From contig CAIKGD010000029.1 in NCBI GenBank assembly GCA_903826865.1, forward strand, positions 1 to 38,533: DNA of 38,533 bases, read 5' to 3'. Source of the stretch: an uncultured Verrucomicrobiota bacterium. GTDB taxonomy: Bacteria > Verrucomicrobiota > Kiritimatiellia > Kiritimatiellales > Tichowtungiaceae. The translations under genes and the position numbers were made by a program. The notes under the pieces were generated by a model. That model saw only the letters and a list, made by a program, of their open reading frames with translations, did not search any database and had not been told where the DNA came from. Shown piece by piece: positions 889-38,533 of this stretch (within the stretch, counting starts at the first letter, position 1; the number at the start of each line of letters is the position of its first letter).

Positions 889-2331
889 TTACGCACCCAG
901 CTTCTTTTTCAGCATAGCGATGACGGCGGGTGGATTGGCTTTGCCTTTGCTCTGTTTCATGACGTAGCCCATGAGAGCATTCACAGAAGCGGCGTTGCCC
1001 GCTTTGTAGGCGTCAACCGCTTTGGCATTCGCCGCGATGGCTTCTTCGGCCCATTTTTCGAGCGCGCTGTCGTCGTTGACCTGCGCCATGCCTTTGACTT
1101 CAACAATCGCTTTCGGGTCACCGCCTTCCGTAAAGAGCACTTCAATCAGTTCATTGGCGGCGCTGGAGCTGATGTTTCCGCCGCCGACCAGATCGGCGAC
1201 CTGCGCCAGCGTTCCGGCGGTCAGCTTGCTTTCGATAACGCTGACGCCTTTCTCCGTAACGAGGCTGGCGACTTTGCCCATCATGTAGTTTGAAAGCAGT
1301 TTGTACTGTTTCGTTTTGTGGCAGGCGGTATCGAAGAAGTCAGAAATATGTTTTTCAGCCGTAAGGACTTTGGCGTCGTAGTCAGGCAGTCCGAGTTCGC
1401 GGACGTAGCGTTCGCGCCGCTGTACCGGCAGTTCGGGCAGTTCGGATTTCCATTGGGAAATCTGCGCGGCGGAGATTTCGACCGGAAGCAGGTCGGGTTC
1501 GGGAAAGTAGCGGTAGTCGTGGGCGTCCTCTTTGGTGCGCTGGGAAAAGGTTTCACCGCGGTCGGAGTCATAGCCGCGCGTTTCCTGCACGACTTTACCG
1601 CCGTTTTCGATCAGTTCAATCTGGCGCGCAATTTCAAAGTTGATGGCTTCGACGATGAAGCTGGGCGAGTTCATGTTTTTGATTTCGACCTTGGCACCGA
1701 GTTTTTCCTGCCCTACCGGACGGACGCTGACGTTGACGTCGGAGCGCATGTGTCCTTTTTCGAGGTCGCAGTCGGAAATGCCGCCGTATTCCATAATGAG
1801 CTTCAAGGCCTGAATGTAGGCGAAGGCATCGTCGGCCGAATGCATGCAGGGCGTGGAGACAATTTCCATCAGTGCGGTGCCGGCGCGGTTGTAGTCAATC
1901 AGACTGCCGCTCTTATCGTGCGTATTCTTGGCGGCATTTTCTTCCTGATGGATGCGCTCAATGGTGAACGTTTTCATCTCGCCGTTCACTTCCGTCACGA
2001 TCTGTCCGCCGAGGCAGAGCGGCCGGTCGGCCTGCGTGATCTGGTAGTTTTTGGACATGTCGGGATAGAAATAGTTTTTGCGGTCCCACTTGGAATGCGG
2101 GTTGATCTCACAGCCGAGCAGCAGTCCGGCTTTGCAGCAGAGTTCGATGGCTTTGGCATTGAGCACCGGAAGCGCGCCGGGATAGCCGAGGCAGACAGGG
2201 CAGACGTTGGTGTTCGGCGGCGCGCCGTATTCGTTGCGGCAGCCGCAGAACATTTTCGTGACCGTTTTCTGCATCACATGGGTTTCAAGCCCGATACACG
2301 CTTCGTATTTCATAGGTGCGCAAGTATCCAT
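889..2331 (-). CDS. gatB: Aspartyl/glutamyl-tRNA(Asn/Gln) amidotransferase subunit B
   Basis: GatB is the kinase/tRNA-binding subunit of the GatCAB complex, which converts mischarged Glu-tRNA(Gln) or Asp-tRNA(Asn) to the amidated form using ammonia passed from GatA. The 480-residue length is normal. The family N-terminus is clear: an IGLETHV motif, then the zinc-type cysteines of MFCGC and NVCPVCLGYPG, then PVLN. The SSAANELIEVL-like helical region and Gln/Lys-rich YqeY-like tail close the protein. The ATG at 2331 has an upstream AAGGG; a second Met six codons later is also possible. gatC and gatA lie together about 10 kb away (12308-14079), so the three subunits are split over two transcription units. 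The gene diverges from the Bat operon. Confidence 0.97.
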   Translation of the reverse strand: MDTCAPMKYEACIGLETHVMQKTVTKMFCGCRNEYGAPPNTNVCPVCLGYPGALPVLNAKAIELCCKAGLLLGCEINPHSKWDRKNYFYPDMSKNYQITQADRPLCLGGQIVTEVNGEMKTFTIERIHQEENAAKNTHDKSGSLIDYNRAGTALMEIVSTPCMHSADDAFAYIQALKLIMEYGGISDCDLEKGHMRSDVNVSVRPVGQEKLGAKVEIKNMNSPSFIVEAINFEIARQIELIENGGKVVQETRGYDSDRGETFSQRTKEDAHDYRYFPEPDLLPVEISAAQISQWKSELPELPVQRRERYVRELGLPDYDAKVLTAEKHISDFFDTACHKTKQYKLLSNYMMGKVASLVTEKGVSVIESKLTAGTLAQVADLVGGGNISSSAANELIEVLFTEGGDPKAIVEVKGMAQVNDDSALEKWAEEAIAANAKAVDAYKAGNAASVNALMGYVMKQSKGKANPPAVIAMLKKKLGA

Positions 2332-2392
2332 ATTTCACCCTTCAATTCAAGCGGCGATACCGCTATAGTCACGCGCTTTAAAAGGAGCCGCT

Positions 2393-3370
2393 ATGCAACA
2401 GAGAATTTCCGCGCTGAGTGAACAGCTCAACCGCATCCGTGAAGCCATTTCGCAGGTGATTGTCGGCCAGCAGGATCTGGTGGATAAACTGCTCACCGCC
2501 CTGCTCTGCAACGGCCACGTTCTGCTGGAAGGCGTTCCCGGCATCGCCAAAACAATGATCGTCAATTCGCTGGCCGGCGCGCTCGACGCCAAATTCAGCC
2601 GCATCCAGTTCACGCCGGATCTGCTGCCCGGCGACCTGATCGGTACGCAGATTTACCGCCCGGAAAGCGGCCTGTTTGAAACGCAGAAAGGGCCGGTTTT
2701 CGCCAATCTGGTGCTGGCCGATGAAATCAACCGCTCGCCCGCCAAGGTGCAGAGCGCCCTGCTGGAAGCGATGCAGGAACATCAGGTGACGCTGGGACGC
2801 GAAACGTATAAGCTGCCCGAACCGTTCATGGTACTGGCCACCCAGAATCCGATCGAACAGGAAGGCACCTACGCCCTGCCCGAGGCGCAGATTGACCGCT
2901 TTATGTTCAAGCTGGTGGTCAGCTATCCCACCATGAAAGAGGAGCACGCCATCCTGAAACGCATGGCGAAAACCGCGCCGAACACAACCGTTGCGCAGGT
3001 CGCTACGCTGAAAGACATTCTTGAGATGCGCAAACTGGTGGACGAAATCTATCTCGACGAAAAGATCGAGCGCTACATTCTGCGCCTGGTCGCCGCCACC
3101 CGCGATCCGTCCACCTGCGGACTGCCGGAACTGAAATCCTACATCCGCTTCGGCGCTTCGCCGCGCGCTTCGATCTACCTCACACTCGCCGCGCGCGGTC
3201 ATGCGCTGGTACAGGGCCGCGAATTTGTTGTTCCCGACGACGTCAAGGCCATGCTGCACGATGTCGTCCGCCACCGCATCGCCATCAGCTACCGCGCGGA
3301 GGCCGAAGGACTTGATTCCGATGCTCTATTGGATCGAATCGTCGCCAACGTGCCCGTAACGGAAGGATAA
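2393..3370 (+). CDS. MoxR-family AAA+ ATPase (first gene of Bat operon)
   Basis: This is a MoxR AAA+ ATPase of 325 residues, the usual length. MoxR proteins are thought to act as chaperones that mature partner proteins carrying von Willebrand A (VWA) domains. Walker A is GVPGIAKT (47-54), Walker B is LADE (108-111), followed by the INRSPAKVQSALLEAMQE signature and sensor 1 in LATQNP. The C-terminal lid domain is present. AAAGGAG lies 6 nt before the ATG. It is the first of six tightly packed genes, followed after 5 nt by the DUF58 gene, with VWA proteins BatA and BatB downstream as likely clients. The divergent neighbour is gatB, 61 nt away, so both promoters must lie in that gap. Confidence 0.96.
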   Translation: MQQRISALSEQLNRIREAISQVIVGQQDLVDKLLTALLCNGHVLLEGVPGIAKTMIVNSLAGALDAKFSRIQFTPDLLPGDLIGTQIYRPESGLFETQKGPVFANLVLADEINRSPAKVQSALLEAMQEHQVTLGRETYKLPEPFMVLATQNPIEQEGTYALPEAQIDRFMFKLVVSYPTMKEEHAILKRMAKTAPNTTVAQVATLKDILEMRKLVDEIYLDEKIERYILRLVAATRDPSTCGLPELKSYIRFGASPRASIYLTLAARGHALVQGREFVVPDDVKAMLHDVVRHRIAISYRAEAEGLDSDALLDRIVANVPVTEG

Positions 3371-3375
3371 CCTTC

Positions 3376-4263
3376 ATGTCCGGCGATCTGGACAAGAAAC
3401 TCCGTCAGCTCCAGCTGCAAACCCGCTATCCGGTCGAGCACTTGCTGGCCGGGGAATACCGCAGTGTTTTCAAAGGACGCGGCATGGATTTCGACGAAAT
3501 CCGTCCCTACACGCCGGGCGACGACGTCCGCACTATGGACTGGAATGTCACAGCCCGCACCGGCAACCCGCATATCAAGCGTTACATTGAAGAGCGCGAA
3601 CTCGCCGTCTGGTTTCTCATCGACACTTCGGCCTCGTGCCGCACCGGACACGGCAGGCGCACCAAGTGGGATGCGGTGCATGAAATTACCGCCCTGCTGA
3701 CGCTTGCCGCCACCCGCAACAACGACCGCACTGGACTGATTCTCTTTTCCGACCGCGTGGAACACGTGATTCCTCCGCGTAAAGGGCGGCTCCATGCCAT
3801 GCGGTTGCTGAACGATCTGCTCAAGGCCGAACCGCAGGGACGGAAAACCGGTCTGCAGCCCGCGCTCGATGCGCTGGCCCACCTCGCACGGCGGCGCAGT
3901 CTGGTTTTCATTATTTCCGACTTCCTGTTCGACACCGGGCGCGAGCAGCTCGGCGCAATGGGTTTCCGGCAGGATCTGATCGCCGTTGCCGTCAACGATC
4001 CGCAGGAAATCGATCCGCCGGTCTGCGGGCTGGTCGCGGTGGCCGATTCCGAAACCGGCGAAACGATGCTGTGCGATTTGAATCGCGCTCGCCAGGCCGA
4101 CTACCGCCGCGCATTTGCCGCACGCCGCGACGCACTGAAAATCGAACTGGATGCCGCCGGAGCCGATCTGATTGAACTCGATACGCAGCAGAACTGCGCC
4201 GAAGTGCTGACGCTCTTCTTCCGCAACCGCCTGCGCCGCACGGCCGACGAAACGGGTGGGTGA
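3376..4263 (+). CDS. DUF58 (VWA-like) protein of Bat operon
   Basis: This 295-residue DUF58 protein is the standard partner of MoxR. The family signature is intact: GRGMDFDEIRPYTPGDD at about 34-50, followed by VRTMDWNVTART (51-62). A VWA-like fold follows, with a degenerate metal site at LIDTSASC (81-88). There is no signal peptide or membrane segment, so it is cytoplasmic or peripheral. Its role is unproven in most species; genetically it goes with the MoxR ATPase in stress tolerance and envelope maintenance. It starts 5 nt after moxR. Its TGA at 4261-4263 overlaps the GTG candidate start of the next gene, which suggests translational coupling. Confidence 0.95.
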   Translation: MSGDLDKKLRQLQLQTRYPVEHLLAGEYRSVFKGRGMDFDEIRPYTPGDDVRTMDWNVTARTGNPHIKRYIEERELAVWFLIDTSASCRTGHGRRTKWDAVHEITALLTLAATRNNDRTGLILFSDRVEHVIPPRKGRLHAMRLLNDLLKAEPQGRKTGLQPALDALAHLARRRSLVFIISDFLFDTGREQLGAMGFRQDLIAVAVNDPQEIDPPVCGLVAVADSETGETMLCDLNRARQADYRRAFAARRDALKIELDAAGADLIELDTQQNCAEVLTLFFRNRLRRTADETGG

Positions 4264-4826
4264 AAATGAAATATTTAAAAACAGCCTTACTGCTGATGGC
4301 CGGCACCGCACTGGCCGGTGAACCGGTGCTGACGGTTGAGCCGTGCGAACTGCGCGGCGTGCCGGGCGCTCCGTTGCGCGCGGAGCTGACCGTCACAACC
4401 CCGGATGCAAAACCGGTACGCCTGCTGATTCCCGAAACTTCCAATCTCGTTCTGCGGGCGGTTGAAAAAATTCCGCTGCAACGCACCGGCGCTGGACTGT
4501 TCGTTCAGAGGCGGATTGTCATCTGGCAGGGCGTCGAAGCCGGGCAGACTGTACTGACCAACCTCACGGCCGGGATCGGCGGTGTGCAGTATATTTTTCC
4601 AAACCTTGGAATCACGGTTGATGCCGTACCGGTTGCGCCGCCGCCGGAAAAAATAACACCAAACAATCTGGACAACCCACCCCGGCCTGCGGCCACCCCT
4701 CCGGTGGAGGGGAATACGAAAGGTTCCATGCGCGATCCCCTCCTTTGGAGGGGTGCCGGAACGGCGGGGTGGGTTCTCTGTTTTCAAAAATTAAATTCCC
4801 GCCATGTTCTGGAGAAAGCCGAATGA
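4260..4826 (+). CDS. Small secreted protein of Bat operon with a repeat-derived C-terminus
   Basis: I do not recognise this 188-residue protein at family level. It starts at GTG 4260, overlapping the previous stop, or at ATG 4266. A signal peptide (MKYLKTALLLMAGTALA) is followed by a beta-rich, immunoglobulin-like exported domain to about residue 130. It may be a small BatD-like or DUF4381-position protein, since a short membrane protein is expected here between DUF58 and BatA. Residues about 139-172 are encoded by repeat A1 (4674-4775), and another short palindrome (family F, 4595-4612) lies just before it. The natural C-terminus, perhaps including a membrane anchor, therefore seems to have been replaced. 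The reading frame stays open, and its TGA overlaps the ATG of BatA (ATGA at 4823-4826). Confidence 0.7.
   Translation: MKMKYLKTALLLMAGTALAGEPVLTVEPCELRGVPGAPLRAELTVTTPDAKPVRLLIPETSNLVLRAVEKIPLQRTGAGLFVQRRIVIWQGVEAGQTVLTNLTAGIGGVQYIFPNLGITVDAVPVAPPPEKITPNNLDNPPRPAATPPVEGNTKGSMRDPLLWRGAGTAGWVLCFQKLNSRHVLEKAE
4595..4612. repeat. Family F palindrome (TTCCAA-N3-TTGGAA), inside a gene
   Basis: TTCCAA ACC TTGGAA at 4598-4612 is a perfect inverted repeat with flanking T residues. Related sequences occur at 14157, 14237, 16042, 24767, 24821 and 25331. It lies in frame inside the small secreted protein, 60 nt before repeat A1. Confidence 0.5.
4674..4775. repeat. Repeat family A, full copy A1, within coding sequence
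   Basis: This is a 102-nt imperfect palindrome bounded by AACCCACCCCG and its complement CGGGGTGGGTT. Each half holds a smaller hairpin made from CCCCTCC/GGAGGGG arms and a GGCC/GCCGG arm. A second full copy lies at 32608-32697 in the opposite orientation, and a left half-copy at 25349-25390. Here it is translated in frame as the Pro/Gly-rich tail of the small Bat-operon protein. The dyad structure resembles REP/BIME-type or miniature transposable elements; I do not recognise a named family. Confidence 0.85.
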
Positions 4827-5872
4827 GCTTTGTCTTTCCATGGGCTCTGCTGCTGCTGCCGTTCGCCGGTCTGTTTCTGCGTAAACAGCGGCTGAACGCC
4901 GTAGTCGTTTCAAGTCTGGCCGGCTGGCGCGGCGCGGCGCAGCCGCGCCGGGTCAAATGGCTCGCTGCCCTGCGGATTCTGCGCACAGCGGCTTTTGCTC
5001 TTTTAATCATTGCGCTGTCCGGACCGCGCACCGAACGGACGGTCAGTGCGGAAATCCGCCACGGCATCGCCATTGAAGCGCTGATTGATATTTCCAGCAG
5101 CATGGACCGCACCATCACCGGAATCAATGTGCAGAAACAAAACCGGCTGGAAGCGGCCAAGAAAACCGTTACGGCGTTTATTGAAAACCGGCCCGACGAC
5201 CTGATCGGGCTGATCACTTTCGCGCGCTACGCCGACACGCTCAGTCCGCTGACCTGCGGCCACAGCGCACTCATTCAACTGGTGCAGGCGATGAAAATCC
5301 AGGACCGCCCGAACGAAGACGGCACCGCCTACGGCGATGCGCTGATGCTGGCCTGCGCGCACCTTGAACGGATGAATGACTGGCGCGACGATAAAACAGT
5401 TTCCGTAAAGAACCCCGCCGCACCGATTCAAAGTAAAACCATCATTCTGCTGACCGACGGCGAAAATAACTGCGGCCTGCACCTGCCGCAGGAAGCCGCC
5501 GGTCTGGCAAAAAAATGGGGCATCCGGCTTTACGCCATCAGTCTCGGTGATGCGGACGAAGTCCGGCGCGAACTGACCGAAGCGGAAAAACTGCTTCAAA
5601 CGATCAGCGAGGCGACCGGCGGAACGTTCTGGAAAATTTTCGACCTCGACGCGCTGTCGAAAGCCTACGAAACGATTGATAAGCTTGAAAAAAGTGAAAT
5701 CAAAAACACGACTCTGATCCATCTGGAGTACCGGAATATTTTTACCTTTTTCGCCCTCCCCGCCCTGCTGCTGCTTTTACTGCACCTGGTTCTGAGCACC
5801 ACGGTCCTGCGGGTAACCGAAGAGCCGGGCGCGCCAAGCCGCTTGAACCCCGAATATCGAACATCGAATTGA
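4823..5872 (+). CDS. batA: BatA-like VWA membrane protein
   Basis: The product is a 349-residue BatA-type protein: an N-terminal hydrophobic hairpin (about 4-20 and 55-66), a periplasm-facing VWA domain with an intact metal-ion-dependent adhesion site (DISSSM, Asp89, Ser91, Ser93; later LTDGENNCG), and a C-terminal membrane segment (about 318-335). Bat proteins were named for aerotolerance in Bacteroides; the precise molecular role is still unclear. I chose ATG 4823, which overlaps the previous stop as ATGA, rather than an upstream in-frame ATG at 4745 that lies inside repeat A1. The last dozen residues (PEYRTSN at the end) come from an AT-rich ATATCGAACATCGAAT simple repeat, so the original tail was probably altered. 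Confidence 0.93.
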   Translation: MSFVFPWALLLLPFAGLFLRKQRLNAVVVSSLAGWRGAAQPRRVKWLAALRILRTAAFALLIIALSGPRTERTVSAEIRHGIAIEALIDISSSMDRTITGINVQKQNRLEAAKKTVTAFIENRPDDLIGLITFARYADTLSPLTCGHSALIQLVQAMKIQDRPNEDGTAYGDALMLACAHLERMNDWRDDKTVSVKNPAAPIQSKTIILLTDGENNCGLHLPQEAAGLAKKWGIRLYAISLGDADEVRRELTEAEKLLQTISEATGGTFWKIFDLDALSKAYETIDKLEKSEIKNTTLIHLEYRNIFTFFALPALLLLLLHLVLSTTVLRVTEEPGAPSRLNPEYRTSN

Positions 5873-37234: not shown

Positions 37235-37681
37235 ATGAAAAAACCGCTGTGGAAAGTGAAGATGTTTTTTCTGACGGTACGGTATCTGGCGAATTCCTGC
37301 CTGCTGTTATTCAATCCCCGGCGGATTAAATTGGAGCGGCTTGGCACCCGCACCCTCCCGGTGCCGCACTGGGTTGCGGCACGGAAAATCTGCAAATTTA
37401 TCCGTTTTTTTATCGGGAAGCGGCGGAAAAACTATTGCGTGCTGCAGGCACTTACTCTTTGTCAGCTTTTGCGGCGATATGGCGTGGATCTGCAACTGAA
37501 TCTAACCGTGTCCCCCCAAACGTATGCAGCATCTGGACGCAGAGTGCGCGGCCACAGCTGGCTGACTCTGACCGGCGAACGTTATTTCGATACAGCAACC
37601 GGTACGGCTGCAAAGCATCTGGTGCTTCTCGCGGCGACACAAAAAAATATAAACTATTGGATTGAACGGCCCGAAAAATAA
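37235..37681 (+). CDS. Lasso-peptide B2-type transglutaminase-like leader peptidase
   Basis: This 148-residue protein belongs to the transglutaminase-like B2 family that removes leader peptides in lasso-peptide pathways. The likely catalytic triad is visible: Cys68 (NYCVLQALTLCQLLRRYG), His107 (RGHSWLTLTG) and Asp119 (ERYFDTATG). The N-terminal 60 residues are basic, as usual. It starts at ATG 37235 with a weak AAAGG upstream. The B1 (PqqD-type) gene follows after 16 nt, and the precursor gene follows that, so the three form one transcription unit. Because the precursor lacks an acidic ring-closing residue, the final product is probably not a classical lasso. Confidence 0.9.
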   Translation: MKKPLWKVKMFFLTVRYLANSCLLLFNPRRIKLERLGTRTLPVPHWVAARKICKFIRFFIGKRRKNYCVLQALTLCQLLRRYGVDLQLNLTVSPQTYAASGRRVRGHSWLTLTGERYFDTATGTAAKHLVLLAATQKNINYWIERPEK

Positions 37682-37697
37682 ACCATATTCTAAACTT

Positions 37698-37973
37698 ATG
37701 AGAATAAACTCAGAAAAGGTGGCGTGGAAAGATATGGGCGAGGAAGTCGTCGTCGTCGATATTGATGTAAACGCACAATATGTTTTTAATGAAACCAGCC
37801 GGGCGGCGTGGCTGGCCTTGGGAAGCGGTGACGGCACAATGGATTCGGTACTTGAAGCTATTCGCCAGCAGTTTAGCGATGTACCCGATAACGCGACCCT
37901 GCAGAAAGACGTATCGGTTTTTCTGGATGATCTGATTTCAAAGGGGTTAATCCAGGTGGAAAGCCCTAACTGA
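37698..37973 (+). CDS. PqqD-family leader-binding protein (lasso B1-like)
   Basis: This 91-residue protein is a PqqD-like RiPP recognition element that binds the precursor leader and presents it to the peptidase. The fold pattern is standard: two N-terminal beta strands (WKDMGEEVVVVDIDVNAQYVFN), then NETSRAAWLAL and helices in SVLEAIRQQF and DVSVFLDDLISKGLIQ. I start it at ATG 37698; an in-frame upstream Met at 37662 overlaps the end of B2. The precursor gene begins 24 nt after its stop. Confidence 0.92.
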   Translation: MRINSEKVAWKDMGEEVVVVDIDVNAQYVFNETSRAAWLALGSGDGTMDSVLEAIRQQFSDVPDNATLQKDVSVFLDDLISKGLIQVESPN

Positions 37974-37997
37974 GGCCAACGAAAGGAAGGAACTGCG

Positions 37998-38126
37998 ATG
38001 GAAGACTTCAAGAAAATCGATAGCCGTCCACGTTACAGCGCACCGAAATACGACGTGTTGTCGCCGGCAGGAAATGCCGATGTGACGTATTATTATTACA
38101 CATACACTTACTATTACGTCTCTTAA
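37998..38126 (+). CDS. RiPP precursor peptide with lasso-type leader and Tyr-rich tail
   Basis: This is a 42-residue gene with a strong ribosome-binding site (AGGAAGG, 7 nt before ATG 37998). The leader carries RYSAP (Tyr13-Ser-Ala-Pro16), matching the YxxP motif bound by lasso B1 proteins. Residues 25-30 (GNADVT) end in Thr30, the position where lasso leaders usually have Thr two before the cut. The tail 30-42 is TYYYYTYTYYYVS, with eight Tyr, two further Thr, and no Asp, Glu, Cys or Lys. Cleavage after Tyr31 would leave an 11-residue core. Its codons alternate TAT and TAC, so it is not a simple-sequence artefact. A terminator follows at 38148. The mature structure is unknown. Confidence 0.88.
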   Translation: MEDFKKIDSRPRYSAPKYDVLSPAGNADVTYYYYTYTYYYVS

Positions 38127-38528: not shown

Positions 38529-38533
38529 GGATG

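Follow-up and report, generated by a model that had tools for sequence, protein, structure and literature searches.

A probable RiPP island with lasso-type leader-processing genes, radical SAM enzymes and a tyrosine-rich precursor in an uncultured Kiritimatiellales bacterium

Contig CAIKGD010000029.1 (38,533 nt; assembly GCA_903826865.1), from an uncultured member of the Tichowtungiaceae within the phylum Verrucomicrobiota, forms the window of this study and is here called C29. Towards its right-hand end it carries genes for a predicted B2-type leader peptidase, a B1 protein and a short tyrosine-rich precursor peptide (A), as expected for a ribosomally synthesized and post-translationally modified peptide (RiPP), and it stops 5 bases past the stop codon of a 110-amino acid open reading frame (ORF). 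When the genome was searched with a profile of RiPP-associated HprK-like kinases, a match was found at the first bases of a second contig, C62, on which a kinase piece (K), a nucleotidyltransferase (N) and two radical S-adenosylmethionine (SAM) proteins lie on one strand (Table 1).

Table 1. Features of the proposed RiPP island and its flanks on contigs C29 and C62
Feature	Contig and position	Strand	Evidence
B2-type leader peptidase (148 aa), predicted	C29 37235..37681	+	PF13471 above cut-off; Cys68/His107/Asp119
B1, discrete PqqD-type RiPP recognition element (91 aa)	C29 37698..37973	+	PF05402 45.8 bits
Precursor A (42 aa), YxxP leader, Tyr-rich core YYYYTYTYYYVS, C-terminal Ser	C29 37998..38126	+	Shine-Dalgarno and terminator
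Intrinsic terminator	C29 38148..38170	+	Perfect 9-bp stem, 7 GC pairs, T8
110-aa ORF at contig end, proposed N-terminal part of kinase K	C29 38196..38528	+	Position and length
Kinase K piece, 5'-open frame	C62 3-689	Same as N and radical SAM genes	PF07475 25 bits, below cut-off 33
Nucleotidyltransferase N	C62 676-1719	Same as K	NTP_transf_5 (PF14907) 103 bits
B12-binding radical SAM protein (674 aa)	C62, after N	Same as N	B12-binding and radical SAM
Radical SAM protein (321 aa)	C62, after B12 enzyme	Same as B12 enzyme	CxxxCxxC and SPASM-like Cys-rich end
waaF and lpxK	C62, beyond radical SAM genes	Opposite to RiPP genes	
msbA-type ABC transporter, flanking the island, outside the pathway	C29 35317..37140	-	MsbA_lipidA best model, 443 bits, below cut-off

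The 42-residue precursor (MEDFKKIDSRPRYSAPKYDVLSPAGNADVTYYYYTYTYYYVS) had been proposed in an earlier sequence-only reading of this DNA, together with a YxxP leader, a ribosome-binding site and a terminator, and all of these were borne out. The sequence AAGGAAGGA precedes its ATG, and among the six ORFs of 25–80 residues in the whole window with a Shine-Dalgarno sequence and an ATG start, the precursor alone has such a terminator behind it, a perfect 9-bp hairpin with a run of eight T residues. Standing between the precursor and the tailoring genes that would follow it, this terminator possibly serves as an attenuator. The tail (TYYYYTYTYYYVS) is free of acidic residues from Thr30 onwards, as had also been claimed, the last one being Asp28. 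Its core contains two overlapping YTY units (YTYTY), and since the eight tail tyrosine codons are mixed (four TAT and four TAC) it is not a simple microsatellite. The pattern YYYxYxYY has a single match in the whole genome; a Tyr-rich DNA pattern run over 388 genomes of the phylum matched mainly large proteins with RHS-like repeats or BY-kinase-like tails, and no other short Tyr-rich precursor was recovered. The precursor contains no cysteine, the core feature of sactipeptides and ranthipeptides, though a radical SAM/SPASM enzyme is present, and no Asp or Glu at core positions 7–9, the feature of lasso peptides. In its leader the motif reads YxxPxY, the second residue after proline being Tyr18 rather than leucine. 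Tyr13 and Thr30 are 17 residues apart, two more than the 15 that separate them in typical lasso leaders (Tyr -17, Thr -2; PMC10368454), and because of these extra residues the cleavage site is uncertain.

The leader-processing pair known from lasso clusters is present, both proteins scoring above the Pfam cut-offs: B1 matches PqqD (PF05402) with 45.8 bits (cut-off 23.4), its best start being the ATG at 37698, and B2 matches Transglut_core3 (PF13471) with 27.0 bits (cut-off 26). This upholds the assignments of the sequence-only reading, a PqqD-type B1 and a B2-type peptidase with Cys68, His107 and Asp119. When the window B2 is aligned with 13 further B2 proteins from the phylum, Cys68 and His107 are conserved in all 14 rows; Asp119 is not universal, several phylum B2 proteins having no Asp at that position. 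It stands 12 residues after His107, a spacing that agrees with that of McjB. Genome-wide scans with the single protein or with a two-sequence alignment gave no relatives of B2, a six-sequence alignment contained no usable stretch, and a plasmid search gave no match. Using tblastn at E 1e-3, the window B2 matched none of the 14 other B2 loci found in class and phylum searches, most of which were retrieved by a canonical B2. For B1, the top NCBIfam model was ScmD (32.2 bits, below the cut-off of 100), and the PDB matches were a PqqD family protein (E 5e-6) and TbiB1 (E 0.32). Its closest relative is a non-lasso PqqD protein at locus L174 (3965-4396). That protein and one at L153 (3854-4291), both beside polysaccharide genes, carry a C-terminal tail (YQKP / FQAP)...LLLADPIHD(F/V)D...WP which looks like a built-in substrate.

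On C62, the K and N genes, and N and the first radical SAM gene, overlap by a few bases, so that the three resemble one operon. The B12-binding enzyme scored 86.8 bits with the KedN5-type model, 61.7 bits with that for RiPP radical SAM C-methyltransferases and 45.7 bits with ApyD, all below the equivalog cut-offs. It is similar to CysS and TokK, cobalamin-dependent radical SAM methylases with solved structures; on plasmids, only distant radical SAM proteins (24–26% identity) were found. If C29 and C62 join inside the kinase gene, as we propose, the P-loop of K would be located near residue 153, which compares with 128–220 in other kinases. The K/N tailoring pair would then accompany a precursor with a C-terminal serine, a residue also found at the end of several lasso-type precursors of the phylum.

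The gene order in related genomes argues for this join. In sister genome G007, msbA and waaF are 35 bp apart, and in G008 and G006 an MBL gene and lpxK lie beside msbA. In the source genome these genes are divided between C62 (waaF, lpxK and MBL) and C29 (msbA), and the RiPP genes at the two ends that would meet are read in the same direction. Because msbA adjoins waaF or lpxK in the sister genomes, both contig ends probably flank a single island. Its two halves have G+C contents of 0.463 and 0.494, below those of flanking stretches of the same size, and the remaining genomes of the genus and order contain neither the PqqD gene nor the N gene. An acquired low-GC island between waaF and msbA would probably account for the synteny, the base composition and the absence from relatives. 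The ABC transporter was considered as the peptide exporter and rejected, being MsbA-like and also present in sister genomes that lack the cluster; msbA relatives at 62–77% identity are present in six of the 13 sister genomes.

We consider it likely, with some steps argued from relatives, that the genes form a RiPP island between waaF and msbA which makes a modified tyrosine-rich peptide. B1 would bind the YxxP leader and present the peptide, and the B12-type and SPASM radical SAM enzymes would modify the tyrosine core, most likely by Tyr-Tyr carbon-carbon cross-links across the YTY units and/or by beta-methylation. K would then phosphorylate the C-terminal serine, N would attach a sugar or nucleotide to the serine phosphate, and B2 would cut off the leader near Thr30. 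According to the literature, B1 proteins bind the leader and hand it to B2 for cleavage with no need of the cyclase (PMC5067487); the B12-type radical SAM enzyme PbsB joins the two tyrosines of YTY by a carbon-carbon bond with no prior hydroxylation (PMC12257519), and ApyD yields beta-methyltyrosine (PMC11117315). The K enzymes of lasso clusters phosphorylate a C-terminal serine, to which the nucleotidyltransferase-like PsmN adds a hexose (PMC9266682). In view of the PbsB and ApyD chemistry, the YTY units in the core and the C-terminal serine, the product is likely to be a Tyr-rich peptide that is cross-linked, C-methylated or both and has a capped serine. A bolder version is put forward only tentatively: the island would represent a new class of RiPP, with B1, B2, K and N serving a linear tyrosine-rich peptide, the two radical SAM enzymes building a ladder of Tyr-Tyr rings on YTYTY, and a phospho-sugar placed on the C-terminal serine.

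Several observations weigh against this island and its pathway. C29 and C62 share no overlapping bases, and the similarity of the 110-amino acid ORF to kinase N-termini is no better than that of shuffled sequence; the ORF is thus linked to the kinase by position only, and the arguments for the join are those of synteny, orientation and composition. The lasso_biosyn_B2 model of NCBIfam gave B2 just 23.1 bits (cut-off 33), which marks it as a divergent member, and its fold is unconfirmed, the AlphaFold2 model being poor (pLDDT 61.7) and the fold search uninformative. While the enzyme families are recognisable, the reactions on this precursor are extrapolated from distant relatives. Finally, no relatives of the cluster were detected in the genomes searched, and it is known from one genome.

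The alternative that fares best holds that this is a PqqD-radical SAM RiPP of the kind common in the class, differing in its Tyr-rich core and additional B2, the comparison with lasso peptides being secondary. Among 90 PqqD loci sampled from the class (L047-L076 and L152-L211), a YxxP-plus-Cys precursor pattern was matched in 50, a few of these matches being due to chance, with a radical SAM-like ORF at 44 of the 50. In such precursors a YxxPx(V/I/L) leader precedes a tail with cysteine; many end in GS, and those tested matched no Pfam or NCBIfam model. The non-lasso nature of the closest B1 relative points the same way. We nevertheless regard this explanation as unlikely, since the surveyed class loci show neither a Tyr-rich precursor nor a B2 of the window kind, and the class radical SAM enzymes, only about 30% identical to the second enzyme on C62, are unlike the B12 enzyme. 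The survey also bears on the leader motif itself. Since many non-lasso, PqqD-linked precursors of the class have YxxPx(V/I/L), YxxPxL is not a lasso signature; in the literature on RiPP recognition elements, YxxP-like motifs are assigned to several RiPP classes (PMC12710340), and of the elements detected with lasso models only about half co-occur with a peptidase and cyclase (PMC7470986). Seven of the loci (L061, L159, L162, L163, L168, L178 and L192) encode a second precursor family with the conserved string GGNYVS and a YxxP leader, and no radical SAM-like ORF lies within the stretch fetched for them. Counts of kinases obtained with a loose profile were set aside, its P-loop matching many ATPases.

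A true lasso cluster, whose B3 cyclase and real precursor were lost at the contig break or are located elsewhere, is highly improbable. In its favour, lasso clusters do contain B1, B2, K and N, B3 is present at most of the 14 other B2 loci, and C29 ends directly behind its last ORF. Against this, the genome is listed as 98% complete, and a whole-genome search with PF00733 (Asn_synthase) gave just four partial matches of 20–28 bits covering 54–75 profile positions. The far side of the gap begins inside the kinase and ends at waaF, and the core offers no Asp or Glu for ring closure. Pfam and NCBIfam scans revealed no B3 among the island proteins, and no second lasso precursor was seen. The sequence-only reading had noted the lack of B3 in the window, which was confirmed, and had named a downstream B3 with a second, normal precursor as a finding that would overturn it; neither was encountered. 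As two defining features of lasso peptides were looked for and not found, the cluster is filed as a RiPP and not as a lasso peptide. B1/B2 pairs lacking B3 are not rare in the phylum, for loci L146 (G381 C36, 5955-7795) and L144 (G468) likewise show no cyclase inside the stretch fetched. A different cyclase-less B1 cluster is common to two genomes of different families (L042 of G052, 1840-5327; L156 of G164, 1258-4251) and includes a PaaK-like ligase, an HprK-like kinase and a nucleotidyltransferase; B2 was seen in G052, and the G164 contig stops at B1. Its 25-residue precursors, MKEYQAPEVIEYPALTDVTGGSPLD and MRDYEAPEVVEYPVLTDVAGGSPLD, have a conserved tail which would represent a five- or six-residue core.

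That the locus is a decayed remnant, its peptide no longer modified and its tail drifting low-complexity sequence, is scarcely credible: the genes do occur in only one genome of the order and the 110-amino acid ORF may be frame-broken, but all other reading frames are intact, genes overlap, and the precursor retains its Shine-Dalgarno sequence, mixed tyrosine codons and terminator.

We therefore return to the island between waaF and msbA as the preferred reading, and the sequence-only reading requires some revision in its light. It had envisaged a different RiPP class borrowing the lasso leader-processing module, which agrees with the lack of B3 and the presence of radical SAM enzymes; K and N appear to be borrowed as well, and YxxP is not specific to lasso peptides. 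Of the genes it had suggested seeking beyond position 38,533, a kinase and two radical SAM enzymes are provided by C62, if the join is accepted, and B3 is not. Should this interpretation be true, the lasso toolkit is modular, with leader-binding, leader-cutting and C-terminal capping enzymes working without the cyclase on a core shaped by radical chemistry. It would further follow that genome mining with only B1/B2 or only YxxP yields too many lasso peptide calls, as YxxP is widespread in the class in the absence of lasso genes. A YTYTY core ending in serine also leads to sharp mass predictions.

Among the closest known systems, the A-B1-B2-C-K-N lasso clusters (paeninodin, pseudomycoidin and Bsf) likewise have split B1 and B2 proteins, a YxxP leader, an HprK-like kinase, a nucleotidyltransferase and a C-terminal serine. 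The island differs in having two radical SAM enzymes and neither the cyclase C (B3) nor an acidic ring residue, and in a B2 divergent from the others of the phylum. The biphenomycin-like RiPPs (PbsB) and aminopyruvatides (ApyD) also combine a B12-type radical SAM enzyme with a tyrosine-containing core, but the island enzyme is only distantly related to theirs, and the island leader would be cut by B1/B2. No MNIO, arginase or P450 was recognised in the island; the scan for MNIO (Pfam and NCBIfam) covered the island proteins and not the rest of the genome. The SynChlorMet cassette (ScmA-F) comprises a PqqD-type protein, an HprK-like protein and two radical SAM proteins, a composition resembling that of the island, whose B1 has ScmD as its best match. 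The scores fall well short of membership (ScmD 32.2 of 100 bits, ScmF 36.5 of 400), ScmC was not among the kinase matches, and the island has in addition a B2 peptidase and N, with one of its radical SAM enzymes B12-type. The YxxP PqqD-radical SAM clusters of the class (L176, L186, L190 and others) similarly possess a discrete PqqD, a YxxP leader and radical SAM enzymes, some of them with K and N; unlike the island they have Cys-containing cores, no B2 and no Tyr-rich core. A search of the class genomes, the plasmids and the literature, a scope which leaves aside most subscription papers and metagenomes, brought up no other cyclase-free arrangement of A-B1-B2-K-N with two radical SAM enzymes. 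Each part is known from other systems, and it is their combination which would be new if confirmed.
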